From assembly GCA_964006375.1 (NCBI GenBank), contig OZ023265.1:166186118-166250117 (forward strand): a stretch of 64,000 nucleotides of DNA. Direction: 5' to 3'. Both the position numbers and the translations under genes were made by a program. Positions 10,272-61,767 of this stretch are shown here, piece after piece. A model generated the notes under the pieces. That model was not told the DNA's origin. It worked only from the letters and a program-made list of their open reading frames with translations, and searched no databases. Positions within the stretch are counted from its first letter, which is position 1. Each line of letters opens with the position of its first letter. The stretch is from Tillus elongatus (Eukaryota; Arthropoda; Insecta; Coleoptera; Cleridae).

Positions 10272-11600
<1,329 letters not shown>

Positions 11601-23933: not shown

Positions 23934-23939
<6 letters not shown>

Positions 23940-29980: not shown

Positions 29981-30004
29981 TTAAGACTATATGCATTCTC
30001 GCAA

Positions 30005-30065
30005 CAATTAGAACCGTAGACCGGTTTCGCTCTCATTAGAGCTCTTCAGTACGTCATACTAATTG
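30005..30065 (-). ncRNA. Hammerhead-ribozyme-like core, element 1, minus-strand copy
   Basis: Reverse complement reads CAATTAG, CTGAAGA, the GCTCT/AGAGC hairpin, GAAA, the ACCG/CGGT hairpin, then CTAATTG. All conserved boxes are present. See 30,612-30,672 for the detailed reading. Confidence 0.55.
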
Positions 30066-30611
30066 CAGCAAAAATGCACCAAAAATAACACGGCTATCGT
30101 ATAGACAGTCTTAAAACACTAAGTGAGTGGTGAACGTGTCGCCACCTAGTTCGGAACCAAGTACTATGTTGTCACGCCCGCTCCAAATAACACAGAGTGT
30201 TAAAAATAGAGACGGTATACAACTAACTAACAATTTAACAAATTGTTAGCCCTGGCCCATTTCTACCCCAATATAGGGACAAAGTATGTAAGACTAGATG
30301 CATTCTCGCAACAATTAGAACCGTAGACCGCTTTCGCTCTCATTATAGCTCTTCAGTTCTAATTGTTGCGAGAATGCATCTAGTCTTACATACTTTGTCC
30401 CTATATTGGGGTAGAAATGGGCCAGGGCTAACAATTTGTTAAATTGTTAGTTAGTTGTATACCGTCTCTATTTTAAACACTCTGTGTTATTTGGAGCGGG
30501 CGTGACAACATAGTACTTGGTTCCGAACTAGGTGGCGACACGTTCACCACTCACTTAGTGTCTTAAGACTGGCTATACGATAGCCGTGTTATTTTTGGTG
30601 CATTTTTGCTG

Positions 30612-30672
30612 CAATTAGTATGCCATACTGAAGAGCTCTAATGAGAGCGAAACCGGTCTACGGTTCTAATTG
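30612..30672 (+). ncRNA. Hammerhead-ribozyme-like core, element 1, copy 2
   Basis: Reading 5' to 3': CAATTAG (30,612-618), a 9-nt insert TATGCCATA able to form a mini hairpin, then the catalytic box CTGAAGA (30,628-634, matching CUGANGA). Helix II is GCTCT-AATG-AGAGC (30,635-648), followed by GAAA (30,649-652). Helix III is A-CCG-GTCTA-CGG-T, giving a G-U-U cleavage triplet ending at 30,665. CTAATTG (30,666-672) can close helix I with the first heptamer. Every invariant core position of a type I hammerhead is present. The unusual feature is that helix I is set off from the core by the 9-nt insert on one strand, so activity is uncertain. Confidence 0.6.
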
Positions 30673-30918
30673 TTGCGAGAATGCATCTAGTCTTACATAC
30701 TTTGTCCCTATATTGGGGTAGAAATGGGCCAGGGCTAACAATTTGTTAAATTGTTAGTTAGTTGTATACCGTCTCTATTTTAAACACCCTGTGTTATTTG
30801 GAGCGGGCGTGACAACATAGTACTTGGTTCCGAACTAGGTGGCGACACGTTCACCACTCACTTAGTGTTTTAAGACTGGCTATACGATAGCCGTGTTATT
30901 TTTGGTGCATTTATGCTG

Positions 30919-30979
30919 CAATTAGTATGCCGTACTGAAGAGCTCTAATGAGAGCGAAACCGGTCTACGGTTCTAATTG
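30919..30979 (+). ncRNA. Hammerhead-ribozyme-like core, element 1, copy 3
   Basis: Same arrangement as at 30,612-30,672, with CTGAAGA at 30,935-941. It differs only in the 9-nt insert (TATGCCGTA). Confidence 0.55.
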
Positions 30980-31171
30980 TTGCGAGAATGCATCTAGTCT
31001 TACGTACTTTGTCCCTATATTGGGGTAGAAATGGGCCAGGGCTAACAATTTGTTAAATTGTTAGTTAGTTGTATACCGTCTCTATTTTAAACACTCTGTG
31101 TTATTTGAAGCGGGCGTGACAACATAGTACTTGGTTCCGAACTAGGTGGCGACACGTTCACCACTCACTTA

Positions 31172-31183
31172 ATGCAAAGCTTT
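31172..31183. repeat. Right 12-bp target duplication ATGCAAAGCTTT
   Basis: Perfect direct copy of 29,969-29,980. Confidence 0.85.
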
Positions 31184-31641: not shown

Positions 31642-32052
31642 TTTATATATGTGCGTGTGTGTGTATCACACCGATAACTCAAAAAATAATGAGCCGATTT
31701 TGATTAAATTTGGTGAGTACCTTCTTTTTGCAAGGCTTAGATAACTTCGTTAGCCAGGAAAATCGGCGTAGGTTTTTGCGGCAAATTTTGTGTCTCATTT
31801 CGGAAAAAAAATATTTCTCCGGAAGTAAGGAAGTAAGGGCAACCAAATTTGGTACTCGTATTTTCACTATAAAGAGTGAGCTACGTACCTAAATATGGGT
31901 CTGTAAGTTTAAAGAGAAAAAAGTTATGGGCATTAAAAAGAGTTTTCTCAAAGCGTCAAAGTCGCGATATGACAGATTGATGTCTGCTTGAATTAGATAG
32001 ACACATTTATGAAATTTCACTTCCATAACGCACTTGCTGCGTCCAGACTTTT
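31440..32052 (+). mobile_element. TA-cored dispersed repeat, copy 6 (internally deleted)
   Basis: It has the left block (GAGGAGATCCGGATTTGTGA), a TA core, and the central block through TTCTCAAAGCGTCAAAGTCG. It then jumps directly to the closing sequence CCATAACGCACTTGCTGCGT and a T-run. About 550 bp present in copy 5 are missing. Confidence 0.75.
31554..31640. repeat. (TA)n microsatellite
   Basis: About 87 bp of TA dinucleotides, the core of copy 6. Confidence 0.97.
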
Positions 32053-38633: not shown

Positions 38634-38642
38634 GAAATTCGC
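38634..38642. repeat. Left 9-bp target duplication GAAATTCGC of the foldback
   Basis: Identical to 61,759-61,767. The paralogous site in copy 5 (near 28,953) has a single AAAATTGGC here. Confidence 0.88.
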
Positions 38643-41600
38643 ACCGGCGTGAAGTTAGCAGCTAAATTCCAGCGGCTAAAATTTCCAGCGGCTAATTTAT
38701 AAAATTCACATATATATTAGAAATAATATTAATTTCGACCTTAAAAACTTCAGTTGCATGTTTGCCGCCTCAATGACAAAAAATCGAAAAAAAATTAATA
38801 ATAATTTCACCATATACAAAAGAAAACATAATTGAGGCCAAATATGACCAAAACGAAAATAAAGTGCCAAGGTATTATTGAGTAATAATCAAAAGTTTTA
38901 AGTATATTTAGGTAGCAACCCTGTACTAACATTTCAAACGCTTGCTTGTCGTCTTATATGGTGAAATATGCACGCAAATATAGACACAATTTTAAATGAG
39001 TAAAAAATTGGAAAAAAAACGCCTTTTTAGCCAAGACAAAAATGGGGTGCCAAGATATGTGACGATAATATTGAAAGCATGTTTACATAGCAACCTTGTG
39101 CAAAAATTTCAACCCCTTGCTTGCCGTCCTTCGTAGTAAAGTCAGCACCCAAATTGAAAGATTGATTCACCCAAATTGAAAGATTGATTTTAATTTACAT
39201 GAAAAGTGAAATAAAATGGCTTTTTTAGCCAAGACAAAAATGTGGTGCCAAGATAAGTGATGATAACACTGAAAGCATATTAACATAGTAACCTTGCGAA
39301 AAAATTTCAACCCCTTGCTTGCCGTCCTTCATGGTGAAGTCGGCGCCCAAATATAGAAATTGATTTTAATTAACATGAAAAGTGCTATAAAATGGCTTTT
39401 TTAGCTAAGACAAAAATGGGGTGCCAAGATATGTGATAATAATATTGAAAGCATATTAACATAGCAACCTTGCGCAAAAATTTCAACCCCTTGCTTGCCG
39501 TCCTTCATGGTGAAGTCGGCGCCCAAATATAGAAATTGATTTTAATTAACATGAAAAGTGTTATAAAATGGCTTTTTAAGCTAAGACAAAAATAGAGTGC
39601 CAAGCCAGGTGATAATAATATCGAAATCATATTAACATAGCAACCTTGTGCAAAAATTGTAACCCCTTGCTCGCCGTCCTTCATAGTGAAGTCGGCGCCC
39701 AAATAGAGAAGTTGATTTTAATTCACATGAAAAGTGTTATAAAATGGCTTCTTTAGCCAAGACAAAAATGAGGTGCCAAGATAAGTGATAATAATACTGA
39801 AAGCATATTAACATAGTAACCTTGCGCAAAAATTTCAACCCCTCGCTTGCCGTCCTTCATGGTGAAGTCGGCGCCCAAATATAGAAATTGATTTTAATTA
39901 ACATGAAAAGTGCTATAAAATGGCTTTTTTAGCTAAGACAAAAAATGGGGTGCCAAGATAAGTGATAATAATATTAAAAGCATATTAACATAGCAACCTT
40001 GCGCAAAAATTTCAACCCCTTGCTCGCCGTCCTTCATAGTGAAGTCGGCGCCCAAATAGAGGAATTGACTTTAATTAACATGAAAAGTGTTATAAAAAGG
40101 CTTTTTTTTAGCTAAGACAAAAATGGAGTGCCAAGATAAGTGATAATAATATTGAAAGCATATTAACATAGCAACCTTGTGCAGAAATTTCAACGCCTTG
40201 CTCGCCGTCCTTCATGGTGAAGTCGGCGCCCAAATAGAGAAATTGATTTTAATTAACATGAAAAGTGTTATAAAATGGCTTTTTTAGCCAAGACAAAAAT
40301 GTGGTGCCACGATAAGTGATAATAATACTGAAAGCATATTAACATAGCAACCTTGCGCAAAAATTTCAACCCCTTGCTTGCCGTCCTTCATGGTGAAGTC
40401 GGCGCCCAAATATAGAAATTGATTTTAATTAACATGAAAAGTGTTATAGAATGGCTTTTTAAGCTAAGACAAAAATAGAGTGCCAAGCCAGGTGATAATA
40501 ATATCGAAATCATATTAACATAGCAACCTTGTGCAAAAATTGTAACCCCTTGCTCGCCGTCCTTCATAGTGAAGTCGGCGCCCAAATAGAGAAGTTGATT
40601 TTAATTCACATGAAAAGTGTTATAAAATGGCTTCTTTAGCCAAGACAAAAATGAGGTGCCAAGATAAGTGATAATAATACTGAAAGCATATTAACATAGT
40701 AACCTTGCGCAAAAATTTCTACCCCTCGCTTGCCGTCCTTCATGGTGAAGTCGGCGCCCAAATATAGAAATTGATTTTAATTAACATGAAAAGTGCTATA
40801 AAATGGTTTTTTTAGCTAAGACAAAAAATGGGGTGCCAAGATAAGTGATAATAATATTAAAAGCATATTAACATAGCAACCTTGCGCAAAAATTTCAACC
40901 CCTTGCTCGCCGTCCTTCATAGTGAAGTCGGCGCCCAAATAGAGGAATTGACTTTAATTAACATGAAAAGTGTTATAAAAAGGCTTTTTTTTAGCTAAGA
41001 CAAAAATGGAGTGCCAAGATAAGTGATAATAATATTGAAAGCATATTAACATAGCAACCTTGTGCAGAAATTTCAACGCCTGGCTCGCCGTCCTTCATGG
41101 TGAAGTCGGCGCCCAAATAGAGAAATTGATTTTAATTAACATGAAAAGTGTTATAAAATGGCTTTTTTAGCCAAGACAAAAATGTGGTGCCACGATAAGT
41201 GATAATAATACTGAAAGCATATTAACATAGCAACCTTACGCAAAAATTTCAACCCCTTGCTAGCCGTCCTTCATGGTGAAGTCGGCGCCCAAATAGAGAA
41301 ATTGAATTTAATTCACATGAAAAGTCTTAAAAAAAGGCTTATTTAGCTAAGACAAAAATAGGGTGCCAAGATAAGTGATAATAATATTGAAAGCATATTA
41401 ACATAGCAACCTTGTGCAAAAATTTCAACCCCTTGCTTGCCGTCCTTCATGGTGAAGTCGGCGCCCAAATATAGAAATTGATTTTAATTAACATGAAAAG
41501 TGTTATAGAATGGCTTTTTAAGCTAAGACAAAAATAGAGTGCCAAGCCAGGTGATAATAATATCGAAATCATATTAACATAGCAACCTTGTGCAAAAATT

Positions 41601-44600
41601 GTAACCCCTTGCTCGCCGTCCTTCATAGTGAAGTCGGCGCCCAAATAGAGAAGTTGATTTTAATTCACATGAAAAGTGTTATAAAATGGCTTCTTTAGCC
41701 AAGACAAAAATGAGGTGCCAAGATAAGTGATAATAATACTGAAAGCATATTAACATAGTAACCTTGCGCAAAAATTTCTACCCCTCGCTTGCCGTCCTTC
41801 ATGGTGAAGTCGGCGCCCAAATATAGAAATTGATTTTAATTAACATGAAAAGTGCTATAAAATGGTTTTTTTAGCTAAGACAAAAAATGGGGTGCCAAGA
41901 TAAGTGATAATAATATTAAAAGCATATTAACATAGCAACCTTGCGCAAAAATTTCAACCCCTTGCTCGCCGTCCTTCATAGTGAAGTCGGCGCCCAAATA
42001 GAGGAATTGACTTTAATTAACATGAAAAGTGTTATAAAAAGGCTTTTTTTTAGCTAAGACAAAAATGGAGTGCCAAGATAAGTGATAATAATATTGAAAG
42101 CATATTAACATAGCAACCTTGTGCAGAAATTTCAACGCCTGGCTCGCCGTCCTTCATGGTGAAGTCGGCGCCCAAATAGAGAAATTGATTTTAATTAACA
42201 TGAAAAGTGTTATAAAATGGCTTTTTTAGCCAAGACAAAAATGTGGTGCCACGATAAGTGATAATAATACTGAAAGCATATTAACATAGCAACCTTACGC
42301 AAAAATTTCAACCCCTTGCTAGCCGTCCTTCATGGTGAAGTCGGCGCCCAAATAGAGAAATTGAATTTAATTCACATGAAAAGTCTTAAAAAAAGGCTTA
42401 TTTAGCTAAGACAAAAATAGGGTGCCAAGATAAGTGATAATAATATTGAAAGCATATTAACATAGCAACCTTGTGCAAAAATTTCAACCCCTTGCTTGCC
42501 GTCCTTCATGGTGAAGTCGGCGCCCAAAGAGAAATTGAAATTAATTTACATGAAAAGTGTTATAAAAAGGCTTTTTTAGCTAAGACAAAAATGGGGTGCC
42601 AAGATAAGTGGTAAATGTGTTGAAAGCATATTTTCGTAGTACCATTCTGCAAAAATTTCAACCCCTTGCTCGCCGTCCTTCATGGTGAAGTCGGCGCCCA
42701 AAGAGAAATGGAATTTAATTCACATGAAAAGTGTTATAAAAAGGCTTTTTTAGCTAAGACAAAAATGTGGTGCCAAGATAAGTGATAATAATACTGAAAG
42801 CATATTCACATAGCAACGTTGTGCAAAAATTTCAACCCCTTGCTCGCCGTCCTTCATGGTGAAGTCGGCGCCCAAATAGAGAAATTGAATTTAATTCACA
42901 TGAAAAGTGTTATAAAATGGCTTTTTTTAGCCAAGACAAAAATGTGGTGCCAAGATAAGTGATAATAATACTGAAAGCATATTAACATAGCAACCTTACG
43001 CAAAAATTTCAACCCCTTGCTTGCCGTCCTTCATGGTGAAGTCGGCGCCCAAATATAGAAATTGGTTTTAATTAACATGAAAAGTGCTATAAAATTGCTT
43101 TTTTAGCTAAGACAAAAATGTGGTGCCAAGACAAGTGCTAAAAATATTGAATGCATATTAACATAGCAACCTTGTGCAACAATTTCAACCCCTTGCTCGC
43201 CGTCCTTCATGGTGAAGTCGGCGCCCAAATAAAGAAATTGATTTTAATTAACATGAAAAGTGCTATAAAATGGCTTTTTTAGCTAAGACAAAAATGGGGT
43301 GCCAAGATAAGTGATAATAATATTGAAAGCATATTAACATAGTAACCTTGCGAAAAAATTTCAACCCCTTGCACGCCGTCCTTCATAGTGAAGTCGGCGC
43401 CCAAATAGAGGAATTAACTTTAATTAACATGAAAAGTGTTATAAAAAGGCTTTTTTAGCTAAGACAAAAATGAGGTGCCAAGATAAGTGATATTAATATT
43501 GAAAGCATATTAACATAGCAACCTTGTGCAACAATTTCAACCCCTTGCTCGCCGTCCTTCATGGTGAAGTCGGCGCCCAAATAAAGAAATTGATTTTAAT
43601 TAACATGAAAAGTGCTATAAAATGGCTTTTTTAGCTAAGACAAAAATGGGGTGCCAAGATAAGTGATAATAATATTGAAAGCATATTAAAATAGCAACGT
43701 TGTGCAGAAATTTCAACGCCTTGCTCGCCGTCCTTCATGGTGAAGTCGGCGCCCAAATAGAGGAATTGACTTTAATTAACATGAAAAGTCTTAAAAAAGG
43801 CTTTTTTAGCTAAGACAAAAATGGGGTGCCAAGATAAGTGATAATAATATTGAAAGCATAATAAAATAGAAACCTTGGGCAAAAATTTCAACCCCTTGCT
43901 CTCCGTCCTTCATGGTGAAGTCGGCGCCTAAATAGAGAAATTGAATTTAATTCACATGAAAAGTGTTATAAAATGGCTTTTTTAGCTAAGACAGAAATGG
44001 GGTGCCAAGATAAGTGACAATAATATTAAAAGCATATTAACATAGCAACCTTGCGCAAAAATTTCAACCCCTTGCTTGCCGTCCTTCATGGTGAAGTCGG
44101 CGCCCAAAGAGAAATTGAAATTAATTTACATGAAAAGTGTTATAAAAAGGCTTTTTTAGCTAAGACAAAAATGGGGTGCCAAAATAAGTGGTAAATGTAT
44201 TGAAAGCATATTTTCGTAGTACCATTCTGCAAAAATTTCAACCCCTTGCTCGCCGTCCTTCATTGTGAAGTCGGCGCCCAAAGAGAAATGGAATTTAATT
44301 CACATGGAAAGTGTTATAAAAAGGCTTTTTTAGCTAAGACAAAAATGTGGTGCCAAGATAAGTGATATTAATACTGAAAGCATATTCACATAGCAACGTT
44401 GTGCAAAAATTTCAACCCCTTGCTCGCCGTCCTTCATGGTGAACTCGGCGCCCAAATAGAGAAATTGATTTTAATTAACATGAAAAGTGTTATAAAATGG
44501 CTTTTTTAGCCAAGACAAAAATGTGGTGCCAAGATAAGTGATAATAATACTGAAAGCATATTAACATAGCAACCTTGCGCAAAAATTTCAACCCCTTGCT

Positions 44601-47600
44601 CGCCGTCCTTCATAGTGAAGTCGGCGCCCAAATAGAGGAATTGACTTTAATTAACATGAAAAGTGTTATAAAAAGGCTTTTTTTTAGCTAAGACAAAAAT
44701 GGAGTGCCAAGATAAGTGATAATAATATTGAAAGCATATTAACATAGCAACCTTGTGCAGAAATTTCAACGCCTTGCTCGCCGTCCTTCATGGTGAAGTC
44801 GGCGCCCAAATAGAGGAATTGACTTTAATTAACATGAAAAGTCTTAAAACAATGCTTTTTTAGCTAAGACAAAAATGTGGTGCCAAGATAAGTGATAATA
44901 ATACTGAAAGCATATTAACATAGCAACCTTACGCAAAAATTTCAACCCCTTGCTTGCCGTCCTTCATGGTGAAGTCGGCGCCCAAATATAGAAATTGGTT
45001 TTAATTAACATGATAAGTGCTAGAAAATGGCTTTTTTAGCTAAGACAAAAATGGGGTGCCAAGATAAGTGATAATAATATTAAAAGCATATTAACATAGC
45101 AACCTTGTGCAAAAATTTCAACCCCTTGCTTGCCGTCCTTCATGGTGAAGTCGGCGCCCAAAGAGAAATTGAAATTAATTTACATGAAAAGTGTTATAAA
45201 AAGGCTCTTTTAGCTAAGACAAAAATGAGGTGCCAAGATAAGTGGTAAATGTGTTGAAAGCATATTTTCGTAGTACCATTCTGCAAAAATTTCAACCCCT
45301 TGCTCGCCGTCCTTCATGGTGAAGTCGGCGCCCAAAGAGAAATGGAATTTAATTCACATGAAATGTGTTATAAAAAGGCTTTTTTAGGTAAGACGAAAAT
45401 GTGGTGCCAAGATAAGTGATAATAATACTGAAAGCATATTCACATAGCAACGCTGTGCAAAAATTTCAACCCCTTGCTCGCCGTCCTTCATGGTGAAGTC
45501 GGCGCCCAAATAGAGAAATTGAATTTAATTCACATGAAAAGTGTTATAAAATGGCTTTTTTAGCCAAGACAAAAATGTGGTGCCAAGATAAGTGATAATA
45601 ATACTGAAAGCATATTAACATAGCAACCTTACGCCAAAATTTCAACCCCTTGCTTGCCGTCCTTCATGGTGAAGTCGGCGCCCAAATATAGAAATTGGTT
45701 TTAATTAACATGAGAAGTGCTATAAAATTGCTTTTTTAGCTAAGACAAAAATGGGGTGCCAAGATAAGTAATAATAGCGTTGAAAGCATATTAATATAGC
45801 AATCCTGTGCAAAAATTTCAACTCCTTGCTTGCCGTCCTTCATGATGAAGTCGGCGCCCAAATAGAGGAACTGACTTTAATTCACATGAAAAGTGTTATA
45901 AAAAGGCTTTTTTAGCTAAGACAAAAATGGGGTGCCAAGATAAGTGGTAAATATATTGAAATCATATTTTCGTAGTACCCTTCTGCAAAAATTTTAACCC
46001 CTTGCTCGCCGTCCTTCATGGTGAAGTCGGCGGCCAAAGAGAAATTGAATTTAATTCACATGAAAAATGTTATAAAAAGGCTTTTCTAGGTAAGACAAAA
46101 ATGGAGTGCCAAGATAAGTGATAATAATATTGAATGGATATTAACATAGCAACCTTGTGCAACAATTTCAACCCCTTGCTCGCCGTCCTTCATGGTGAAG
46201 TCGGCGCCCAAATAAAGAAATTGATTTTAATTAACATGAAAAGTGCTATAAAATGGCTTTTTTTAGCTAAGACACAAATGGGGTGCCAAGATAAGTGATA
46301 ATAATATTGAAAGCATATTAACATAGCAACCTTGTGCAAAAATTTCAACCCCTTGCTTGCCGTCCTTCATGGTGTAGTCGGCGCCCAAAGAGAAATTGAA
46401 ATTAATTTACATGAAAAGTGTTATAAAAAGGCTGTTTTAGCTAAGACAAAAATGGGGTGCCAAGATAAGTGGTAAATGTATTGAAAGCATATTTTCGTAG
46501 TACCATTCTGCAAAAATTTCAACCCCTTGCTCGCCGTCCTTCATGGTGAAGTCGGCGCCCAAAGAGAAATGGAATTTAATTCACATGAAAAGTGTTATAA
46601 AAAGGCTTTTTTAGCTAAGACAAAAATGTGGTGCCAAGATAAGTGATAATAATACTGAAAGCATATTCACATAGCAACGTTGTGCAAAAATTTCAACCCC
46701 TTCCTCGCCGTCCTTCATGGTGAAGTGGGCGCCCAAATAGAGAAATTGAATTTAATTCACATGAAAAGTCTTAAAAAAAGGCTTTTTTAGCTAAGACAAA
46801 AATGGGGTGCCAAGATAAGTGATAATAATATGAAAAGCATTATAAAATAGCAACGTTGTGCAAAAATTTCAACCTCTTGCTCGCCGTCCTTCATGGTGAA
46901 GTCGGCGCCCAAATATAGAAATTAATTTTAATTAACATGAAAAGTGTTATAAAATGGCTTTTTTAGCTAAGACAAAAATGGGGTGCCAAGATAAGTGATA
47001 ATAATATTGAAAGCATATTAATATAGCAACCTTGTGCAAAAATTTCAACCCCTTGCTTTCCGTCTTTCATGGTGAAGTCGGCGCCCAAATATAGAAATTG
47101 GTTTTAATTAACATGAAAAGTGCTATAAGATGGCTTTTTTAGCTAAGACAAAAATGGGGTGCCAAGATAAGTGATAATAATATTGAAAGCATATTAACAT
47201 AGCAACCTTGTGCAAAAATTTCAACCCCTTGCTTGCCGTCCTTCATGGTGTAGTCGGCACCCAAAGAGAAATTGAAATTAATTTACATGAAAAGTGTTAT
47301 AAAAAGGCTTTTTTAGCTAAGACAAAAATGGGGTGCCAAGATAAGTGGTAAATGTATTGAAAGCATATTTTCGTAGTACCATTCTGCAAAAATTTCAACC
47401 CCTAGCTCGCCGTCCTTCATGGTGAAGTCGGCGCCCAAATAGAGAAATTGAATTTAATTCACATGAAAAGTGTTATAAAATGGCTTTTTTAGCCAAGACA
47501 AAAATGTGGTGCCAAGATAAGTGATAATAATACTGAAAGCATATTAACATAGCAACGTTGTGCAAAAATTTCAACCCCTTGCTCGCCGTCCTTCATAGTG

Positions 47601-48327
47601 AAGTCGACGCCCAAATAGAGGAATTGACTTTAATTGACATGAAAACTGTTATAAAAAGGCTTTTTTTTAGCTAAGACAAAAATGGAGTGCCAAGATAAGT
47701 GATAATAATATTGAAAGCATATTAACATAACAACCTTGTGCAGAAATTTCAACCCCTTGCTCGCCGTCCTTCATGGTGAAGTCGGCGCCCAAATAGAGGA
47801 ATTGACTTTAATTAACATGAAAAGTCTTTAAAAAATGCTTTTTTAACTAAGACAAAAATTGGGTGCCAAGATAAGTGATAATAATATTGAAAGCATATTA
47901 AAATAGCAACGTTGTGCAAAAATTTCAACCCCTTGCTCGCCGTCCTTCATGGTGAATTCGGCGCCCAAATAGAGAAATTGAATTTAATTCACATGAAAAG
48001 TCTTATAAAATGGCTTTTTTAGCCAAGACAAAAATGTGGTGCCAAGATAAGTGATAATAATACTGAAAGCATATTAACATAGCAACCTTGCGCAAAAAAT
48101 TTAGCCCTTGCTCGTTGTCCTTCATAGTGAAGTTGTCGCCCAAATAGATAAATTGAATTGAATTCACATGAAAAGTATTATAAAATGGCTTTTTTAGCTA
48201 AGACAAAAATTGGGTGCCAAGATAAGTGATAATAATATTAAAAGCATATTAACAGCGCAACCTTCTGCAAAAATTTCAACCCCTTGCTCGCTGTCCTTCA
48301 TGGTGAAGTCGGCGCCCAAATAGAGAT
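38643..48327 (-). repeat. Left foldback arm: ~176-bp tandem satellite array
   Basis: The tip (to ~38,860) is non-satellite: subrepeats of AGCGGCTAAA-type, then GTTGCATGTTTGCCGCCTC. From ~38,860 monomers recur every 176-178 bp, with a shorter ~173-bp variant (CCCAAAGAGAAATGG). Landmarks per monomer are GCCGTCCTTCATGGTGAAGT, TCGGCGCCCAAA, AACATGAAAAGTG, TTAGCTAAGACAAAAATGGG and GCAACCTTG. The first two or three monomers at the tip are clearly diverged and inner ones are nearly identical. I estimate about 53 monomers. A 1,059-bp (six-monomer) block is duplicated in tandem (40.3-41.4 and 41.4-42.4 kb). Short open frames of 60-65 codons inside monomers are by-products of the repeat. Confidence 0.92.
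39151..39194. repeat. 22-bp tandem duplication in the left arm
   Basis: CACCCAAATTGAAAGATTGA occurs twice in direct succession. The mirror position in the right arm (near 61,240) has one copy, which accounts for the 22-bp length difference between the two tips up to the first shared landmark. Confidence 0.8.
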
Positions 48328-48345
48328 TGACTTCACATATCTTGG
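48315..48345. other. Symmetry centre of the foldback
   Basis: On the left the monomer breaks off after CAAATAGAGATTGA. On the right the opposite orientation begins with CACATATCTTGGCACCCC. No foreign spacer lies between them. Confidence 0.8.
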
Positions 48346-51300
48346 CACCCCATTTTTGTCTTGGCTAAAAAAGCCATTTTATTTCACTTTCTATGTGAAT
48401 AAAATTAAATTTCTCTATTTGGGCGCCGACTTCACTATGAAGGACGGCGAGCAAGGGGTTGAAATTTTTGCAGAAGGCTAATACGAAAATATGCTTTCAA
48501 TACTATTATCACTTATCTTGGCACCCCATTTTTGTCTTAGCTAAAAAAGCCATTTTATAACAGTTTTCATGTTAATTAAAACCAATTTCTATATTTGGGC
48601 GCCGACTTCACCATGAAAGACGGCAAGCAAGGGGTTGAAATTTTTGCACAAGGTTGCTATATTAATATGCTTTCAATATTATTATCACTTATCTTGGCAC
48701 CCCATTTTTGTCTTAGCTAAAAAGGCCATTTTATAACACTTTTCATGTTAATTAAAATTAATTTCTATATTTGGGCGCCGACTTCACCATGAAGGACGGC
48801 GAGCAAGGGGTTGAAATTTTTGCACAACGTTGCTATTTTAATATGATTTTCATATTATTATCACTTATCTTGGCACCCCATTTTTGTCTTAGCTAAAAAA
48901 GCCTTTTTTTAAGACTTTTCATGTGAATTAATTTCAATTTCTCTATTTGGGCGCCGACTTCACCATGAAGGACGGCGAGCAAGGGGTTGAAATTTTTGCG
49001 TAAGGTTGCTATGTTAATATGCTTTCAGTATTATTATCACTTATCTTGGCATCACATTTTTGTCTTGGCTAAAAAAGCCATTTTATAACACTTTTCATGT
49101 GAATTAAATTCAATTTCTCTATTTGGGCGCCGACTTCACCATGAAGGACGGCGAGCAAGGGGTTGAAATTTTTGCGTAAGGTTGCTATGTTAATATGCTT
49201 TCAGTATTATTATCACTTATCTTGGCATAACATTTTTGTCTTGGCTAAAAAAGCCATTTTATAACACTTTTCATGTGAATTAAATTCAATTTCTCTATTT
49301 GGGCGCCGACTTCACCATGAAGGACGGCGAGCAAGGGGTTGAAATTTTTGCAGAATGGTACTACGAAAATATGCTTTCAATACATTTACCACTTATCTTG
49401 GCACCACATTTTTGTCTTAGCTAAAAGCCTTTTTATAACACTGTTCATGTGAATTAAATTCCATTTCTCTTTGGGCGCCGACTTCACCATGAAGGACGGC
49501 GAGCAAGGGGTTGAAATTTTTGCAGAATGGTACTACGAAAATATGCTTTCAATACATTTACCACTTATCTTGGCACCCCATTTTTGTTTTAGCTAAAAAA
49601 GCCTTTTTATAACACTTTTCATGTAAATTAATTTCAATTTCTCTTTGGGCGCCGACTTCACCATGAAGGACGGCAAGCAAGGGGTTGAAATTTTTGCACA
49701 AGGTTGCTATGTTAATATGCTTTCAATATTATTATCACTTATCTTGGCACCCCATTTTTGTCTTAGCTAAAAAAGCCATTTTATAGCACTTTTCATGTTA
49801 ATTAAAACCAATTTCTATATTTGGGCGCCGACTTCACCATGAAGGACGGCAAGCAAGGGGTTGAAATTTTTGCACAAGGTTGCTATGTTAATATGATTTC
49901 AATATTATTATCACTTATCTTGGCACCCCATTTTTGTCTTAGCTAAAAAAGCCATTTTATAGCACTTTTCATGTTAATTAAAATTAATTTCTATATTTGG
50001 GCGCCGACTTCACCATGAAGGACGGCGAGCAAGGGGTTGAAATTTTTGCACAACGTTGCTATTTTAATATGCTTTCCATATTATTATCACTTATCTTGGC
50101 ACCCCATTTTTGTCTTAGCTAAAAAAGCCTTTTTTTAAGACTTTTCATGTGAATTAAATTGAATTTCACTATTTGGGCGCCGACTTCACCATGAAGGACG
50201 GCGAGCAAGGGGTTGAATTTTTTGCACAAAGTTGCTATGTTAATATGCTTTGAATATTATTATCACTTATCTTGGCACCTCATTTTTGTCTTAGCTAAAA
50301 AGCCTTTTTATAACACTTTTCATGTTAATTAAAGTTAATTCCTCTATTTGGGCGCCGACTTCACTATGAAGGACGGCGTGCAAGGGGTTGAAATTATTTC
50401 GCAAGGTTACTATGTTAATATGCTTTCAATATTATTATCACTTATCTTGGCACCTCATTTTTGTCTTAGCTAAAAAAGCCTTTTTATAACACTTTTAATG
50501 TTAATTAAAATTAATTTCTATATTTGGGCGCCGACTTCACCATGAAGGACGGCGAGCAAGGGGTTGAAATTTTTGCACAACGTTGCTATTTTAATATGCT
50601 TTTCATATTATTATCACTTATCTTGGCACCCCATTTTTGTCTTAGCTAAAAAAGCCTTTGTTTAAGACTTTTCATGTGAATTAAATTCAATTTCTCTATT
50701 TGGGCGCCGACTTCACCATGAAGGACGGCAAGCAAGGGGTTGAAATTTTTGCGTAAGGTTGCTATGTTAATATGCTTTCAGTATTATTATCACTTATCGT
50801 GGCACCACATTTTTGTCTTGGCTAAAAAAGCCATTTTATAACACTTTTCATGTTCATTAAAATCAATTTCTCTATTTGGGCGCCGACTTCACCATGAAGG
50901 ACGGCGAGCAAGGGGTTGAAATTTTTGCACAACGTTGCTATGTGAATGTGCTTTCAGTATTATTATCACTTATCTTGGCACCACATTTTTGTCTTAGCTA
51001 AAAAAGCCTTTTTATAACACTTTTCATGTGAATTAAATTCCATTTCTCTTTGGGCGCCGACTTCACCATGAAGGACGGCGAGCAAGGGGTTGAAATTTTT
51101 GCAGAATGGTACTACGAAAATATGCTTACAATACATTTACCACTTATCTTGGCACCCCATTTTTGTCGTAGATAAAAAAGCCTTTTTATAACACTTTTCA
51201 TGTAAATTAATTTCAATTTCTCTTTGGGCGCCGACTTCACCATGAAGGACGGCAAGCAAGGGGTTGAAATTTTTGCACAAGCTTGCTATGTTAATATGCT

Positions 51301-54300
51301 TTCAACATTATTATCACTTATCTTGGCACAACATTTTTGTCTTTTTATATATGCCATTTTATAGCACTTTTCATGTTAATTAAAATTAATTTCTATATTT
51401 GGGCGCCGACTTCACCATGAAGGACGGCGAGCAAGGGGTTGAAATTTTTGCACAACGTTGCTATTTTAATATGCTTTCCATATTATTATCACTTATCTTG
51501 GCACCCCATTTTTGTCTTAGCTAAAAAAGCCTTTTTTTAAGACTTTTCATGTGAATTAAATTCAATTTCACTATTTGGGCGCCGACTTCACCATGAAGGA
51601 CGGCGAGCAAGGGGTTGAATTGTTTGCACAAGGTTGCTTACTTTTCATGTAAATTAATTTCAATTTCTGTTTGGGCGCCGACTTCACCATGAAGGACGGC
51701 AAGCAAGGGGTTGAAATTTGTGCACAAGGTTGCTATGTTAATATTCTTTCAATATTATTATCACTTATCTTGGCACCCCATTTTTGTCTTAGCTAAAAAA
51801 GCCATTTTATAGCACTTTTCATGTTAATTAAAATTAATTTCTATATTTGGGCGCCGAGTTCACCATGAAGGACGGCGAGCAAGGGGTTGAAATTTTTGCA
51901 CAACGTTGCTATTTTAATATGCTTTTCATATTATTATCACTTATCTTGGCACCCCATTTTTGTCTTAGCTAAAAAAGCCTTTTTTTAAGACTTTTCATGT
52001 GAATTAATTTCAATTTCTCTTTGGGCGCCGACTTCACCATGAAGGACGGCAAGCAAGGGGTTGAAATTTTTGCACAAGGTTGCTATGTTAATATGCTTTC
52101 AATATTATTATCACTTATCTTGGCACCCCATTTCTGTCTTAGCTATGAAGGACGGCGAGCAAGGGGTTGAATTTTTTGCACAAGGTTGCTATGTTAATAT
52201 GCTTTCAATATTATTATCACTTATCTTGGCACCTCATTTTTGTCTTAGCTAAAAAAGCCTTTTTATAACACTTTTCATGTAAATTAATTTCAATTTCTCT
52301 TTGGGCGCCGACTTCACCATGCAGGACGGCAAGCAAGGGGTTGAAATTTGTGCACAAGGTTGCTATGTTAATATTCTTTCAATATTATTATCACTTATCT
52401 TGGCACCACATTTTTGTCTTGGCTAAAAAAGCCATTTTATAATACTTTTCATGTGAATTCAATTCAATTTATCTATTTGGGCGACAACTTCACTATGAAG
52501 GACAACGAGCAAGGGCTAAATTTTTTGCGCAAGGTTGCTATGTTAATATGCTTTCAGTATTATTATCACTTATCTTGGCACCACATTTTTGTCTTGGCTA
52601 AAAAAGCCATTTTATAACACTTTTCATGTGAATTAAATTCAATTTCTCTATTTGGGCGCCGACTTCACCATGAAGGACGGCGAGCAAGGGGTTGAAATTT
52701 TTGCAGAATGGTACTACGAAAATATGCTTTCAATACATTTACCACTTATCTTGGCACCCCATTTTTGTCTTAGCTAAAAAAGCCTTTTTATAACACTTTT
52801 CATGTAAATTAATTTCAATTTCTCTTTGGGTGCCGACTTCACCATGAAGGACGGTAAGCAAGGGGTTGAAATTTTTGCACAAGGTTGCTATGTTAAAATG
52901 CTTTCAATATTATTATCACTTATCTTGGCACCCCATTTTTGTCTTAGCTAAAAAAGCCATTTTATAGCACTTTTCATGTTAATTAAAACCAATTTCTATA
53001 TTTGGGCGCCGAATTCACCATGAAGGACGGCAAGCAAGGGGTTGAAATTTTTGCACAAGGTTGCTATGTTAATATGCTTTCAATATTATTATCACTTATC
53101 TTGGCACCACATTTTTGTCTTGGCTAAAAAAGCCATTTTAAAATACTTTTCATGTGAATTCAATTCAATTTATCTATTTGGGCGACAACTTCACTATGAA
53201 GGACAACGAGCAAGGGCTAAATTTTTTGCGCAAGGTTGCTATGTGAATATGCTTTCAGTATTATTATCACTTATCTTGGCACCACATTTTTGTCTTAGCT
53301 AAAAAAGCCTTTTTATAACACTTTTCATGTGAATTAAATTCCATTTCTCTTTGGGCGCCGACTTCACAATGAAGGACGGCGAGCAAGGGGTTGAAATTTT
53401 TGCACAACGTTGCTATTTTAATATGCTTTCCATATTATTATCACTTATCTTGGCACCCCATTTTTGTCTTAGCTAAAAAAGCCTTTTTTTAAGACTTTTC
53501 ATGTGAATTAAATTCAATTTCACTATTTGGGCGCCGACTTCACCATGAAGGACGGCGAGCAAGGGGTTGAATTGTTTGCACAAGGTTGCTTACTTTTCAT
53601 GTAAATTAATTTCAATTTCTGTTTGGGCGCCGACTTCACCATGAAGGACGGCAAGCAAGGGGTTGAAATTTGTGCACAAGGTTGCTATGTTACTATTCTT
53701 TCAATATTATTATCACTTATCTTGGCACCCCATTTTTGTCTTAGCTAAAAAAGCCATTTTATAGCACTTTTCATGTTAATTAAAATTAATTTCTATATTT
53801 GGGCGCCGACTTCACCATGAAGGACGGCGAGCAAGGGGTTGAAATTTTTGCACAACGTTGCTATTTTAATATGCTTTTCATATTATTATCACTTATCTTT
53901 GCACCCCATTTTTGTCTTAGCTAAAAAAGCCTTTTTTTAAGACTTTTCATGTGAATTAATTTCAATTTCTCTTTGGGCGCCGACTTCACCATGAAGGACG
54001 GCAAGCAAGGGGTTGAAATTTTTGCACAAGGTTGCTATGTTAATATGCTTTCAATATTATTATCACTTATCTTGGCACCCCATTTCTGTCTTAGCTATGA
54101 AGGACGGCGAGCAAGGGGTTGAATTTTTTGCACAAGGTTGCTATGTTAATATGCTTTCAATATTATTATCACTTATCTTGGCACCTCATTTTTGTCTTAG
54201 CTAAAAAAGCCTTTTTATAACACTTTTCATGTAAATTAATTTCAATTTCTCTTTGGGCGCCGACTTCACCATGCAGGACGGCAAGCAAGGGGTTGAAATT

Positions 54301-55969
54301 TGTGCACAAGGTTGCTATGTTAATATTCTTTCAATATTATTATCACTTATCTTGGCACCACATTTTTGTCTTGGCTAAAAAAGCCATTTTATAATACTTT
54401 TCATGTGAATTCAATTCAATTTATCTATTTGGGCGACAACTTCACTATGAAGGACAACGAGCAAGGGCTAAATTTTTTGCGCAAGGTTGCTATGTTAATA
54501 TGCTTTCAGTATTATTATCACTTATCTTGGCACCACATTTTTGTCTTAGCTAAAAAAGCCTTTTTATAACACTTTTCATGTGAATTAAATTCCATTTCTC
54601 TTTGGGCGCCGACTTCACAATGAAGGACGGCGAGCAAGGGGTTGAAATTTTTGCAGAATGGTACTACGAAAATATGCTTTCAATACATTTACCACTTATC
54701 TTGGCACCCCATTTTTGTCTTAGATAAAAAAGCCTTTTTATAACACTTTTCATGTAAATTAATTTCAATTTCTCTTTGGGCGCCGACTTCACCATGAAGG
54801 ACGGTAAGCAAGGGGTTGAAATTTTTGCACAAGGTTGCTATGTTAAAATGCTTTCAATATTATTATCACTTATCTTGGCACCCCATTTTTGTCTTAGCTA
54901 AAAAAGCCATTTTATAGCACTTTTCATGTTAATTAAAACCAATTTCTATATTTGGGCGCCGAATTCACCATGAAGGACGGCAAGCAAGGGGTTGAAATTT
55001 TTGCACAAGGTTGCTATGTTAATATGCTTTCAATATTATTATCACTTACCTTGGCACCCCATTTCTGTCTTAACTAAAAAAGCCATTTTATAGCACTTTT
55101 TATGTTAATTAAAATTAATTTCTATATTTAGGCGCCGACTTCACCATGAAGGACGGCGAGCAAGGGGTTGAAATTTTTGCACAACGTTGCTATTTTAATA
55201 TGCTTTCAATATTATTATCACTTATCTTGGCACCCCATTTTTGTCTTAGCTAAAAAAGCCTTTTTATAACACTTTTCATGTGAATTAAATTCCATTTCTC
55301 TTTGGGCGCCGACTTCACCATGAAGGACGGCGAGCAAGGGGTTGAAATTTTTGCAGAATGGTACTACGAAAATATGCTTTCAACACATTTACCACTTATC
55401 TTGGCACCCCATTTTTGTCTTAGCTAAAAAAGCCTTTTTATAACACTTTTCATGTAAATTAATTTCAATTTCTCTTTGGGCGCCGACTTCACTATGAAGG
55501 ACGGCAAGCAAGGGGTTGAAATTTTTGCACAAGGTTGCTATGTTAATATGCTTTTAATATTATTATCACTTATCTTGGCACCCCATTTTTGTCTTAGCTA
55601 AAAAAGCCATTTTCTAGCACTTTTCATGTTAATTAAAACCAATTTCTATATTTGGGCGCCGACTTCACCATGAAGGACGGCAAGCAAGGGGTTGAAATTT
55701 TTGCACAACGTTGCTATTTTAATATGCTTTCAATATTATTAACACTTATCTTGGCACCTCATTTTTGTCTTAGCTAAAAAAGCATTTTTTTAAGACTTTT
55801 CATGTTAATTAAAGTCAATTCCTCTATTTGGGCGCCGACTTCACCATGAAGGACGGCGAGCAAGGCGTTGAAATTTCTGCACAAGGTTGCTATGTTAATA
55901 TGCTTTCAATATTATTATCACTTATCTTGGCACTCCATTTTTGTCTTAGCTAAAAAAAAGCCTTTTTAT

Positions 55970-55981
55970 AACACTTTTCAT
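55970..55981. repeat. Left 12-bp target duplication AACACTTTTCAT
   Basis: Identical to 58,400-58,411. In every neighbouring satellite monomer this sequence occurs once, so the duplication was made by the insertion. Confidence 0.88.
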
Positions 55982-56175
55982 CACTAAGTGAGTAGCGAAC
56001 GTGTCGCCACCTAGTTCGGAACCAAGTACTTGTTGTCACGTCCGCTCCAAATAATACAGAGTATTAAAAATAGAGACGGTATACAACTAACTAACAATTT
56101 AAAAAATTGTTAGCCCTGGCCCATTTCTACCCCAATATAGGGACAAAGTATGTAAGACTAGATGCATTCTCGCAA

Positions 56176-56236
56176 CAATTAGAACCGTAGACCGGTTTCG
56201 CTCTCATTAGAGCTCTTCAGTACGGCATACTAATTG
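56176..56236 (-). ncRNA. Hammerhead-like core, element 2, unit 1
   Basis: Minus-strand reading: CAATTAG, TATGCCGTA, CTGAAGA, GCTCT-AATG-AGAGC, GAAA, CCG-GTCTA-CGG-TT, CTAATTG. Same core as in element 1. Confidence 0.55.
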
Positions 56237-56481
56237 CAGCAAAAATGCACCAAAAATAACACGGCTAACGTATAGCCAGTCATAAAACACTAAGTCAGTA
56301 GCGAACGTGTCGCCACCTAGTTCGGAACCAAGTACTTGTTGTCACGTCCGCTCCAAATAATACAGAGTATTAAAAATAGAGACGGTATACAACTAACTAA
56401 CAATTTAAAAAATTGTTAGCCCTGGCCCATTTCTACCCCAATATAGGGACAAAGTATGTAAGACTAGATGCATTCTCGCAA

Positions 56482-56542
56482 CAATTAGAACCGTAGACCG
56501 GTTTCGCTCTCATTAGAGCTCTTCAGTACGGCATACTAATTG
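56482..56542 (-). ncRNA. Hammerhead-like core, element 2, unit 2
   Basis: Identical arrangement to 56,176-56,236, one 306-bp period later. Confidence 0.55.
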
Positions 56543-56940
56543 CAGCAAAAATGCACCAAAAATAACACGGCTAACGTATAGCCAGTCTTAAAACACTAAG
56601 TGAGTAGCGAACGTGTCGCCACCTAGTTCGGAACCAAGTACTTGTTGTCACGTCCGCTCCAAATAATACAGAGTATTAAAAATAGAGACGGTATACAACT
56701 AACTAACAATTTAAAAAATTGTTAGCCCTGGCCCATTTCTACCCCAATATAAGTGAGTAGCGAACGTGTCGCCACCTAGTTCGGAACCAAGTACTTGTTG
56801 TCACGTCCGCTCCAAATAATACAGAGTATTAAAAATAGAGACGGTATACAACTAACTAACAATTTAAAAAATTGTTAGCCCTGGCCCATTTCTACCCCAA
56901 TATAGGGACAAAGTATGTAAGACTAGATGCATTCTCGCAA

Positions 56941-57001
56941 CAATTAGAACCGTAGACCGGTTTCGCTCTCATTAGAGCTCTTCAGTACGGCATACTAATT
57001 G
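56941..57001 (-). ncRNA. Hammerhead-like core, element 2, unit 4
   Basis: Same core. The preceding, shortened unit (around 56,750) has lost its copy. Confidence 0.55.
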
Positions 57002-57246
57002 CAGCAAAAATGCACCAAAAATAACACGGCTAACGTATAGCCAGTCTTAAAACACTAAGTGAGTAGCGAACGTGTCGCCACCTAGTTCAGAACCAAGTAC
57101 TTGTTGTCACGTCCGCTCCAAATAATACAGAGTATTAAAAATAGAGACGGTATACAACTAACTAACAATTTAAAAAATTGTTAGCCCTGGCCCATTTCTA
57201 CCCCAATATAGGGACAAAGTATGTAAGACTAGATGCATTCTCGCAA

Positions 57247-57307
57247 CAATTAGAACCGTAGACCGGTTTCGCTCTCATTAGAGCTCTTCAGTACGGCATA
57301 CTAATTG
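57247..57307 (-). ncRNA. Hammerhead-like core, element 2, unit 5
   Basis: Same core. The unit carries a small change just outside it (CAAATTTGCACC instead of CAAAAATGCACC). Confidence 0.55.
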
Positions 57308-57552
57308 CAGCAAATTTGCACCAAAAATAACACGGCTAACGTATAGCCAGTCTTAAAACACTAAGTGGGTAGCGAACGTGTCGCCACCTAGTTCGGAACC
57401 AAGTACTTGTTGTCACGTCCGCTCCAAATAATACAGAGTATTAAAAATAGAGACGGTATACAACTAACTAACAATTTAAAAAATTGTTAGCCCTGGCCCA
57501 TTTCTACCCCAATATAGGGACAAAGTATGTAAGACTAGATGCATTCTCGCAA

Positions 57553-57613
57553 CAATTAGAACCGTAGACCGGTTTCGCTCTCATTAGAGCTCTTCAGTAC
57601 GGCATACTAATTG
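57553..57613 (-). ncRNA. Hammerhead-like core, element 2, unit 6
   Basis: Same core as the other units. Confidence 0.55.
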
Positions 57614-57858
57614 CAGCAAAAATGCACCAAAAATAACACGGCTAACGTATAGCCAGTCTTAAAACACTAAGTGAGTAGCGAACGTGTCGCCACCTAGTTC
57701 GGAACCAAGTACTTGTTGTCACGTCCGCTCCAAATAATACAGAGTATTAAAAATAGAGACGGTATACAACTAACTAACAATTTAAAAAATTGTTAGCCCT
57801 GGCCCATTTCTACCCCAATATAGGGACAAAGTATGTAAGACTAGATGCATTCTCGCAA

Positions 57859-57919
57859 CAATTAGAACCGTAGACCGGTTTCGCTCTCATTAGAGCTCTT
57901 CAGTACGGCATACTAATTG
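57859..57919 (-). ncRNA. Hammerhead-like core, element 2, unit 7
   Basis: Same core as the other units. The next unit is cut by the orientation switch. Confidence 0.55.
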
Positions 57920-58303
57920 CAGCAAAAATGCACCAAAAATAACACGGCTAACGTATAGCCAGTCTTAAAACACTAAGTGAGTAGCGAACGTGTCGCCACC
58001 TAGTTCGGAACCAAGTACTTGTTGTCACGTCCGCTCCAAATAATACAGAGTATTAAAAATAGAGACGGTATACAACTAACTAACAATTTAAAAAATTGTT
58101 AGCCCTGGCCCATTTCTACCCCAATATAGGGACAAAGTATGTAAGACTAGATGCATTCTCGCAACAATTAGAACCGTAGACCGGTTGGAGCGGACGTGAC
58201 AACAAGTACTTGGTTCCGAACTAGGTGGCGACACGTTCGCTACTCACTTAGTGTTTTAAGACTGGCTATACGTTAGCCGTGTTATTTTTGGTGCATTTTT
58301 GCT

Positions 58304-58364
58304 GCAATTAGTATGCCGTACTGAAGAGCTCTAATGAGAGCGAAACCGGTCTACGGTTCTAATT
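58304..58364 (+). ncRNA. Hammerhead-like core, element 2, inverted terminal unit
   Basis: Same core on the plus strand, in the inverted partial unit that closes the element. Confidence 0.55.
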
Positions 58365-58399
58365 GTTGCGAGAATGCATCTAGTCTTACATACCTTTTA

Positions 58400-58411
58400 A
58401 ACACTTTTCAT
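58400..58411. repeat. Right 12-bp target duplication AACACTTTTCAT
   Basis: Perfect direct copy of 55,970-55,981. Confidence 0.88.
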
Positions 58412-61400
58412 GTTAATTAAAGTCAATTCCTCTATTTGGGCGCCGACTTCACCATGAAGGACGGCGAGCAAGGGGTTGAAATTTTTGCACAACGTTGCTA
58501 TGTGAATATGCTTTCAGTATTATTATCACTTATCTTGGCACCACATTTTTGTCTTAGCTAAAAAAGCCTTTTTATAACACTTTTCATGTAAATTAATTTC
58601 AATTTCTCTTTGGGCGCCGACTTCACCATGAAGGACGGCAAGCAAGGGGTTGAAATTTTTGCACAAGGTTGCTATGTTAATATGCTTTCAATATTATTAT
58701 CACTTATCTTGGCACCCCATTTCTGTCTTAGCTAAAAAAGCCATTTTATAGCACTTTTTATGTTAATTAAAATTAATTTCTATATTTAGGCGCCGACTTC
58801 ACCATGAAGGACGGCGAGCAAGGGGTTGAAATTTTTGCACAACGTTGCTATTTTAATATGCTTTCAATATTATTATCACTTATCTTGGCACCCCATTTTT
58901 GTCTTAGCTAAAAAAGCCTTTTTTTTTTACTTTTCATGTGAATTAAATTCAATTTCACTATTTGGGCGCCGACTTCACCATGAAGGACGGCGAGCAAGGG
59001 GTTGAATTTTTTGCACAAGGTTGCTATGTTAATATGCTTTCAATATTATTATCACTTATCTTGGCACCCCATTTTTGTCTTAGCTAAAAAAGCCATTTTA
59101 TAGCACTTTTCATGTTAATTAAAATCAATTTCTTTATTTGGGCGCCGACTTCACCATGAAGGACGGCGAGCAAGGGGTTGAAATTGTTGCACAAGGTTGC
59201 TATGTTGATATGCTTTCAATATTAATATCACTTATCTTGGCACCTCATTTTTGTCTTAGCTAAAAAAGCCTTTTTATAACACTTTTCATGTTAATTAAAG
59301 TTAATTCCTCTATTTGGGCGCCGACTTCACTATGAAGGACGGCGTGCAAGGGGTTGAAATTATTTCGCAAGGTTACTATGTTAATATGCTTTCAATATTA
59401 TTATCACTTATCTTGGCACCCCATTTTTGTCTTAGCTAAAAAAGCCATTTTATAGCACTTTTCATGTTAATTAAAATCAATTTCTTTATTTGGGCGCCGA
59501 CTTCACCATGAAGGACGGCGAGCAAGGGGTTGAAATTGTTGCACAAGGTTGCTATGTTAATATGCATTCAATATTATTATCACTTATCTTGGCACCACAT
59601 TTTTGTCTTAGCTAAAAAAGCAATTTTATAGCACTTTTCATGTTAATTAAAACCAATTTCTATATTTGGGCGCCGACTTCATCATGAAGGACGGCGAGCA
59701 AGGGGTTGAAATTTTTGCGTAAGGTTGCTATGTTAATATGCTTACAGTATTATTATCACTTATCTTGGCACCACATTTTTGTCTTGGCTAAAAAAGCCAT
59801 TTTATAACACTTTTCATGTGAATTAAATTCAATTTCTCTATTTGGGCGCCGACTTCACCATGAAGGACGGCGAGCAAGGGGTTGAAATTTTTGCACAACG
59901 TTGCTATTTTAATATGCTTTCAATATTATTATCACTTATCTTGGCACCCCATTTGTGTCTTAGCTAAAAAAGCCTTTTTATACCACTTTTCATGTGAATT
60001 AAATTCCATTTCTCTTTGGGCGCCGACTTCACCATGAAGGACGGCGAGCAAGGGGTTGAAATTTTTGCAGAATGGTACTACGAAAATATGCTTTCAACAC
60101 ATTTACCACTTATCTTGGCACCCCATTTTTGTCTTAGCTAAAAAAGCCTTTTTATAACACTTTTCATGTAAATTAATTTCAATTTCTCTTTGGGCGCCGA
60201 CTTCACCATGAAGGACGGCAAGCAAGGGGTTGAAATTTTTGCACAAGGTTGCTATATTAATATGATTTTAATATTATTATCACTTATCTTGGCACCCCAT
60301 TTTTGTCTTAGCTAATAAAGCCATTTTCTAGCACTTTTCATGTTAATTAAAACCAATTTCTATATTTGGGCGCCGACTTCACCATGAAGGACGGTAAGCA
60401 AGGGGTTGAAATTTTTGCACAACGTTGCTATTTTAATATGCTTTCAATATTATTAACACTTATCTTGGCACCTCATTTTTGTCTTAGCTAAAAAAGCATT
60501 TTTTTTAAGACTTTTCATGTTAATTAAAGTCAATTCCTCTATTTGGGCGCCGACTTCACCATGAAGGACGGCGAGCAAGGCGTTGAAATTTCTGCACAAG
60601 GTTGCTATGTTAATATGCTTTCAATATTATTATCACTTATCTTGGCACTCCATTTTTGTCTTAGCTAAAAAAAAGCCTTTTTATAACACTTTTCATGTTA
60701 ATTAAAGTCAATTCCTCTATTTGGGCGCCGACTTCACTATGAAGGACGGCGAGCAAGGGGTTACAATTTTTGCACAAGGTTGCTATGTTAATATGATTTC
60801 GATATTATTATCACCTGGCTTGGCACTCTATTTTTGTCTTAGCTTAAAAAGCCATTTTATAACACTTTTCATGTTAATTAAAATCAATTTCTATATTTGG
60901 GCGCCGACTTCACCATGAAGGACGGCAAGCAAGGGGTTGAAATTTTTGCGCAAGGTTGCTATGTTAATATGCTTTCAATATTATTATCACATATCTTGGC
61001 ACCCCATTTTTGTCTTAGCTAAAAAAGCCATTTTATAGCACTTTTCATGTTAATTAAAATCAATTTCTATATTTGGGCGCCGACTTCACTATGAAGGACG
61101 GCAAGCAAGGGGTTGAAATTTTTTCGCAAGGTTACTATGTTAATATGCTTTCAGTGTTATCATCACTTATCTTGGCACCACATTTTTGTCTTGGCTAAAA
61201 AAGCCATTTTATTTCACTTTTCATGTAAATTAAAATCAATCTTTCAATTTGGGTGCTGACTTTACTACGAAGGACGGCAAGCAAGGGGTTGAAATTTTTG
61301 CACAAGGTTGCTATGTAAACATGCTTTCAATATTATCGTCACATATCTTGGCACCCCATTTTTGTCTTTGCTAAAAAGGCGTTTTTTTTCCAATTTTTTA

Positions 61401-61758
61401 CTCATTTAAAATTGTGTCTATATTTGCGTGCATATTTCACCATATAGGACGACAAGCAAGCGTTTGAAATGTTAGTACAGGGTTGCTACCTAAATATACT
61501 TAAAACTTTTGATTATTACTCAATAATACCTTGGCACTTTATTTTCGTTTTGGTTATATTTGGCCTCAATTATGTTTTCTTTTGTATATGGTGAAATTAT
61601 TATTAATTTTTTTTCGATTTTTTGCCATTGAGGCGGGAAACATGCAACTGAAGTTTTTAAGGTCGAAATTAATATTATTTCTAATATATTAGTGAATTTT
61701 ATAAATTAGCCGCTGGAAATTTTAGCCGCTGGAATTTAGCTGCTAACTTCACGCCGGT

Positions 61759-61767
61759 GAAATTCGC
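61759..61767. repeat. Right 9-bp target duplication GAAATTCGC of the foldback
   Basis: Perfect direct copy of 38,634-38,642. Confidence 0.88.

Follow-up and report, generated by a model that had tools for sequence, protein, structure and literature searches.

Satellite-bearing foldback elements

The systems that appear closest to the element described here, which lies at positions 38643-61758 of a 64,000-nucleotide stretch of the genome of the beetle Tillus elongatus (contig OZ023265.1, assembly GCA_964006375.1; the whole stretch is referred to as the window), are Tetris and Rehavkus-1_TC. Tetris, from Drosophila virilis, is described as a non-autonomous foldback element with 8-10-bp target duplications and ~220-bp tandem repeats in its arms, repeats which also occur as kilobase arrays; the available description gives it a variable middle domain and arms of up to 1,735 bp, and suggests that transposition may have been disrupted by larger arrays (PMC4079207). 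Rehavkus elements are described with 9-bp target duplications and minisatellite (PMC6446971), and Rehavkus-1_TC of Tribolium castaneum carries the 164-bp satellite TCsat23 in its inverted termini, mostly as five and eight monomers in the copies recounted (PMC10218199). Whether long satellite arrays came first, or transposons with few repeats, is stated there to be an open question (PMC10218199).

The present family shares with Rehavkus the 9-bp duplication and, with Rehavkus-1_TC in particular, satellite in the inverted termini, and it works, by description, in the manner of Tetris and of the Rehavkus termini. Long inverted termini of tandem repeats, and dispersed copies with duplications of constant length (within one mismatch in 17 of 18 elements), are those of a foldback transposon. 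Rehavkus-1_TC differs in being 9.5 kb long with short arrays and in belonging to a class with a PHD-finger transposase, whereas here none of the 20 centres read has a middle and about 4 to 61 monomers are found per arm; we do not claim membership of Rehavkus, because the likeness rests on descriptions and not on a comparison of transposases or reference sequences. Unlike Tetris, the present family includes complete elements that retain intact duplications and hold more than 100 monomers about a single inherited, spacer-less centre. Tm1 Mutator/Foldback elements of root-knot nematodes are likewise described with composite inverted arms containing internal repeats, with duplications of 8-10 bp, most often 9 bp, in 45 of 53 elements, but the internal repeats are ~14 bp, the described copies ~1 kb, and a Mutator-like transposase is present in some (PMC3169594). 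Arthropod Mutator-like elements (MULEs), of the Mutator superfamily, vary in inverted-repeat length; their described full length is 1.4-10.0 kb and their inverted repeats span 13-1,193 bp (PMC13359780), whereas the present arms reach 13.4 kb. The family stands apart from Tetris and Rehavkus in lacking a middle, in its single inherited, spacer-less centre, and in having as many as ~61 monomers in one arm of a copy whose duplication is intact. No middle-less foldback family of this kind was found in the literature outside Repbase, mainly open-access papers.

We regard the element as most probably a non-autonomous foldback DNA transposon moved by a Mutator-group (MULE/Rehavkus) transposase. The original prediction, made from the window alone, had drawn a comparison with Mutator and Phantom; the Mutator group is favoured, but Tetris and Rehavkus-1_TC are closer than Phantom.

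Insertion and dispersal of the family

In the window copy the tip ACCGGCGTGAAGTTAGCAG is found at 38643 on the plus strand and its reverse complement at 61740-61758. The 207-bp left tip (38643-38849, plus strand) and the 207-bp right tip (61552-61758, minus strand) contain no recognisable satellite. An alignment of the outer ~750 bp of the arms has 727 identical positions, 8 mismatches and 22 gap columns. Immediately outside are the 9-bp target duplications GAAATTCGC at 38634-38642 and 61759-61767, a sequence with a single further occurrence in the window, at 16566; the chance of two 9-mers of flanking DNA matching, neither of them A/T only, is ~2e-5. The flanks were joined with one duplicate kept, and aligned to the copies in the window of the host repeat into which the element is inserted. 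The best copy (28735-29398, plus strand) crosses the join with 85% identity over 680 bp, and has AAAATTGGC at 28955-28963 as the counterpart of the target. Three more copies also cross it: 24425-23931 (78.6% over 542 bp), 11121-10693 (80.4% over 429 bp) and 23768-23370 (74.3% over 428 bp). Both the inverted tips with their 9-bp duplication and the empty site within the window, as first proposed, are thus borne out. The host repeat itself is dispersed, at 3139-3317, 10693-11121, 23370-23768, 23931-24425, 28735-29398, 31758-31962 and in both element flanks, and the insertion point is uninterrupted in four of its copies. Helitrons and Helentrons are not known to have target duplications or terminal inverted repeats, and the presence here of 9-bp duplications and inverted tips rules them out.

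The first 218 bp of the element were searched against its own assembly (1.72 Gb, 30 contigs). The best-scoring 40 of 148 first-look candidates were scored, at 95-100% identity, and all family counts rest on these 40, a set that under-represents stand-alone arrays and any copies that are old, divergent or autonomous; the lengths of arrays depend on how the assembly resolved them. Judged by their positions and orientations, 28 of these tips make up 14 head-to-head pairs and 12 are single, giving 26 elements. A partner was found for four of the single tips in 10 kb fetched inward, which brings the elements with both tips to 18, five of them (C5:157.8, C8:68.77, C4:56.01, C3:133.35 and C1:58.82 Mb) read in the outer 4 kb per side only. 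The 9-bp duplication is exact in 15 of the 18 and has one mismatch in two (L013, C8). When the left flank of one element was set against the right flank of another, none of 306 combinations came within one mismatch, the minimum being three. Target sequences differ among the duplicated pairs, and the 15 exact duplications show a weak A/T-rich preference, roughly (C/T)AAATTT at the start, in what is a small sample with no control. The 18 elements measure 3,950 to 25,732 bp and 11 exceed 8.8 kb. The window copy, at 23.1 kb, is the second largest, so that its description as very large holds in relative terms only, the range reaching 25.7 kb. Tips within one element are slightly more alike (97.8%) than tips taken from different elements (97.1%; p 0.01, on between-element pairs that are not independent), and the own partner is nearest or co-nearest for 8 of 36 tips where about one is expected. 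The central proposal of a spacer-less foldback family with satellite arms is supported by these same-tip copies and their duplications, and the search for further copies that had been put forward as its test was passed.

The element is assigned to the Mutator group because the length of its duplication, 9 bp, and the architecture of the closest described systems both point there, and movement in trans, by a MULE or Rehavkus transposase made elsewhere, would follow the same reasoning. It is also conceivable, though rather doubtful, that the same foldback transposon is moved by a transposase from outside the Mutator group, for example a Merlin or P-related enzyme, given that the foldback form arises in different lineages: Galileo, which is foldback-like, is placed in the P superfamily in the available account (PMC4079207). 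In the copies examined neither a transposase nor an autonomous element bearing these tips came to light, with no genome-wide search for transposase domains made, and this leaves room for such an enzyme. The target duplication of Galileo is shorter than 9 bp. A constant 9-bp duplication fits the Mutator group, as does the described association of 9-bp duplications with minisatellite in Rehavkus (PMC6446971) and of satellite with inverted termini in Rehavkus-1_TC (PMC10218199).

Anatomy and the shared centre

Between its tips the window copy consists of satellite with a period of 176 bp. The left arm, 'Y' by centre orientation, extends over 38850-48326 on the plus strand (53 anchors) and the right or 'X' arm over 48333-61551 on the minus strand (61 anchors), placed head-to-head. 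Orientation flips at ~48326-48333 with a spacer of a few bases at most, which agrees with the spacer-less reversal reported near 48,327, and the core of the junction (48326-48337, minus strand) is common to 15 other elements. At the centre the two arms end at different points of the monomer, and they are unequal in length, ~9.7 kb on the left and 13.4 kb on the right, or ~11.0 kb when a nested insertion is set aside. Satellite makes up 88% of the element, leaving uncovered the two tips and 2.4 kb of the right arm. The interior had been described as ~176-bp monomers, which is correct for the arms but not for 55982-58399; there a 306-bp repeat, separate from the foldback element itself and missed earlier, is inserted inside one monomer and flanked by the 12-bp duplication AACACTTTTCAT at 55970-55981 and 58400-58411.

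The same order of tip, plus array, minus array and tip is found in all eight elements scanned (the window copy and seven others), which are ~85-95% satellite and in which the longest stop-to-stop frame is 121 amino acids; tandem-repeat inverted arms are also present in L032, L034, L036, L038 and C9e. Arms are unequal across copies and neither is consistently the longer. Centres were read in 20 of the 26 elements and none has a middle domain, the arrays abutting directly. At 16 of the 20 the same asymmetric, spacer-less junction is present, and a count of its 12-base core over the 321,402 bases examined gives exactly 16, one in each of these elements. Variants to the left and right of the centre are linked in all 16, forming one set in L012, L013, L015, L016, L032, L033, L038 and L043 (the 10.8-kb C9 element) and another in L011, L014, L017, L023, L034, L035, L039 and the window copy. 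Within the second set, a 2-bp deletion at the centre is common to the window copy and L011, an element of 4.9 kb, and despite this their arms differ four- to five-fold in length, those of L011 being 2.8 and 2.1 kb as against 13.4 and 9.7 kb. Because 16 of 20 centres are the same junction, the palindrome formed once and was then dispersed; it was thus in palindromic form that the family spread, and its arms changed in length from copy to copy. As to other content, frames resembling those of retroelements by eye interrupt or truncate foldback copies at L037 (336-4644) and L041 (3843-10000), and the non-satellite stretches of L039 and L029 hold no frame of at least 90 amino acids.

Two further explanations can be judged against this anatomy. 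The first is that the locus is an ordinary satellite array that inverted, with no transposon involved, in the manner of the Tribolium macro-dyads. These are head-to-head satellite arrays of tens of kilobases, similar in scale to the present ones, with conserved inversion sites, but they are described as a form of (peri)centromeric satellite organisation and the available portion of their description mentions no target duplications (PMC13081366). Such an origin is very improbable here, being contradicted by the conserved tips, by 9-bp duplications of different targets in 15 of 18 elements and by the empty-site paralogues. The second is an artefact of fold-back reads or of assembly, a concern attached to the palindrome from the outset. 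Long inverted arrays are hard to assemble, and the right arm contains a block (51542-54203) repeated after 1,952 bp with monomers 98.9-100% identical, which is either recent array growth or an assembly duplication. An artefact would, however, yield arms that are symmetric at the centre, and the occurrence of one asymmetric junction in 16 copies, whose loci and target duplications differ, makes it extremely unlikely; the palindrome is upheld on this account.

Monomer order and exchange between arms

The foldback transposon, as read here, has two short conserved tips, two head-to-head 176-bp arrays and one inherited inversion point, with no middle domain; arm length would change by unequal exchange, and the two arms of one palindrome may convert each other. 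Relations among monomers bear on these steps. The set compared comprised 501 monomers of 165-185 bp, those outside this range being dropped, from 12 complete elements with the shared centre; L036, which has a different centre, was left out of arm analyses, as were L013 and L038 from the own-arm test, one arm in each having fewer than five usable monomers. Read arm against arm, the window copy is collinear from tip to centre, with a chain score of 40.3 compared with a maximum of 14.4 in 200 shuffles and 8.9 in reversed order. For ten elements together, collinearity between own arms, set against X and Y arms of different elements, gave a summed score of 196.5 and a permuted mean of 70.3; none of 10,000 permutations reached the observed sum, and 9 of 10,000 did so without the two strongest elements. 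This excess of shared monomer order suggests arm-to-arm exchange within one element.

It is also possible, although we think it unlikely, that elements insert while small and their arrays grow later at their own loci, whole arms never jumping. Growth in place is most visible in the window copy, which has recent block duplications within each arm, and the monomers of this copy and of C9e match best inside their own element; over the whole set the nearest relative lies in the own element for 176 of 501 monomers, where chance gives ~10%. Identity, on the other hand, is ~0.89 both within and between elements, and for the remaining 325 monomers the nearest relative lies in another element, so that much monomer diversity is common to elements, alongside some in-place growth. 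The window copy and L014, whose loci and duplications differ, moreover have a tip-anchored chain of 16 monomers in common order, with a mean identity of 97.0% and a score of 29.2 (best of 20 shuffles, 13.7). The simplest reading of this chain is that the arm moved as a block by transposition, and conversion between the loci may be offered as an alternative.

Several points weigh against a foldback transposon that carries whole arms and homogenises them. Besides the absence of a transposase from the copies examined, one of the 18 pairs (L015) has no duplication, with five mismatches. Four of the centres read (L030, L031, L036 and L040) differ from the shared junction and from each other, and the sample of centres covers 20 of 26 elements; L036 has an exact 9-bp duplication in spite of its deviant centre, and the four could represent later deletions across the middle. 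The 325 monomers with relatives elsewhere mean that homogenisation in place is partial, and own-arm collinearity is at background in four of ten elements (L011, L012, L014 and L032). Only 65 of 221 between-element arm pairs beat all 20 shuffles and mean chains are short; since most such arms are not collinear, as growth in place would have it, few pairs show whole-arm transposition directly, and the same pattern could be produced by ectopic conversion.

On balance we lean somewhat towards a spacer-less palindrome, formed once, that carries kilobase satellite arms to new loci by transposition and whose arms meanwhile rewrite each other, so that it might both disperse and homogenise its own satellite. 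The family is informative on the spread of satellite DNA: since its centre can be identified, its tips compared and its monomer order read, array transposition, growth in place and arm exchange become separable copy by copy.

The tip (bases 1-216) was also considered as a decayed monomer and this was rejected, its in-phase alignment to the monomer consensus being weak and equalled by 25 of 1,000 shuffles, and those to the neighbouring decayed unit and to the first monomer by 263 and 92 of 1,000. A decayed monomer can clearly be recognised in bases 200-330 of the element (score 94, reached by 0 of 300 shuffles). A 20-mer of the tip had one match (Cedecea) among GTDB genome contigs and a 17-mer one match among viral contigs, neither extending beyond the pattern; one monomer pattern and one 306-bp-repeat pattern had none among viral contigs, and scanning the window for Rfam families and tRNAs gave no matches. 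One reverse-transcriptase frame drew 433 matches; among the best 120, nearly all of those with a named organism come from arthropods (Callosobruchus, Gonioctena, Armadillidium, Euphydryas, Pararge), in line with an arthropod host, and two labelled Bacteroidota and Klebsiella are taken to be contamination.

A second 306-bp-repeat insertion is present at 29969-31183 with the perfect 12-bp duplication ATGCAAAGCTTT. Both it and its nested counterpart (55970-58411) have inverted units inside and end at similar places of the unit, and they may represent a second mobile element that carries satellite and makes a duplication of unusual length. Part of the 306-bp unit has a counterpart of ~68% similarity at 18728-18847, perhaps an old relative. 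Elsewhere in the window, 14571-15203 (minus strand) and 20484-21068 (plus strand) are fragments of non-LTR (non-long-terminal-repeat) retrotransposons; the reverse transcriptase domain RVT_1 is matched at E 3e-29, and an endonuclease weakly, with a score that falls short of the curated cut-off.

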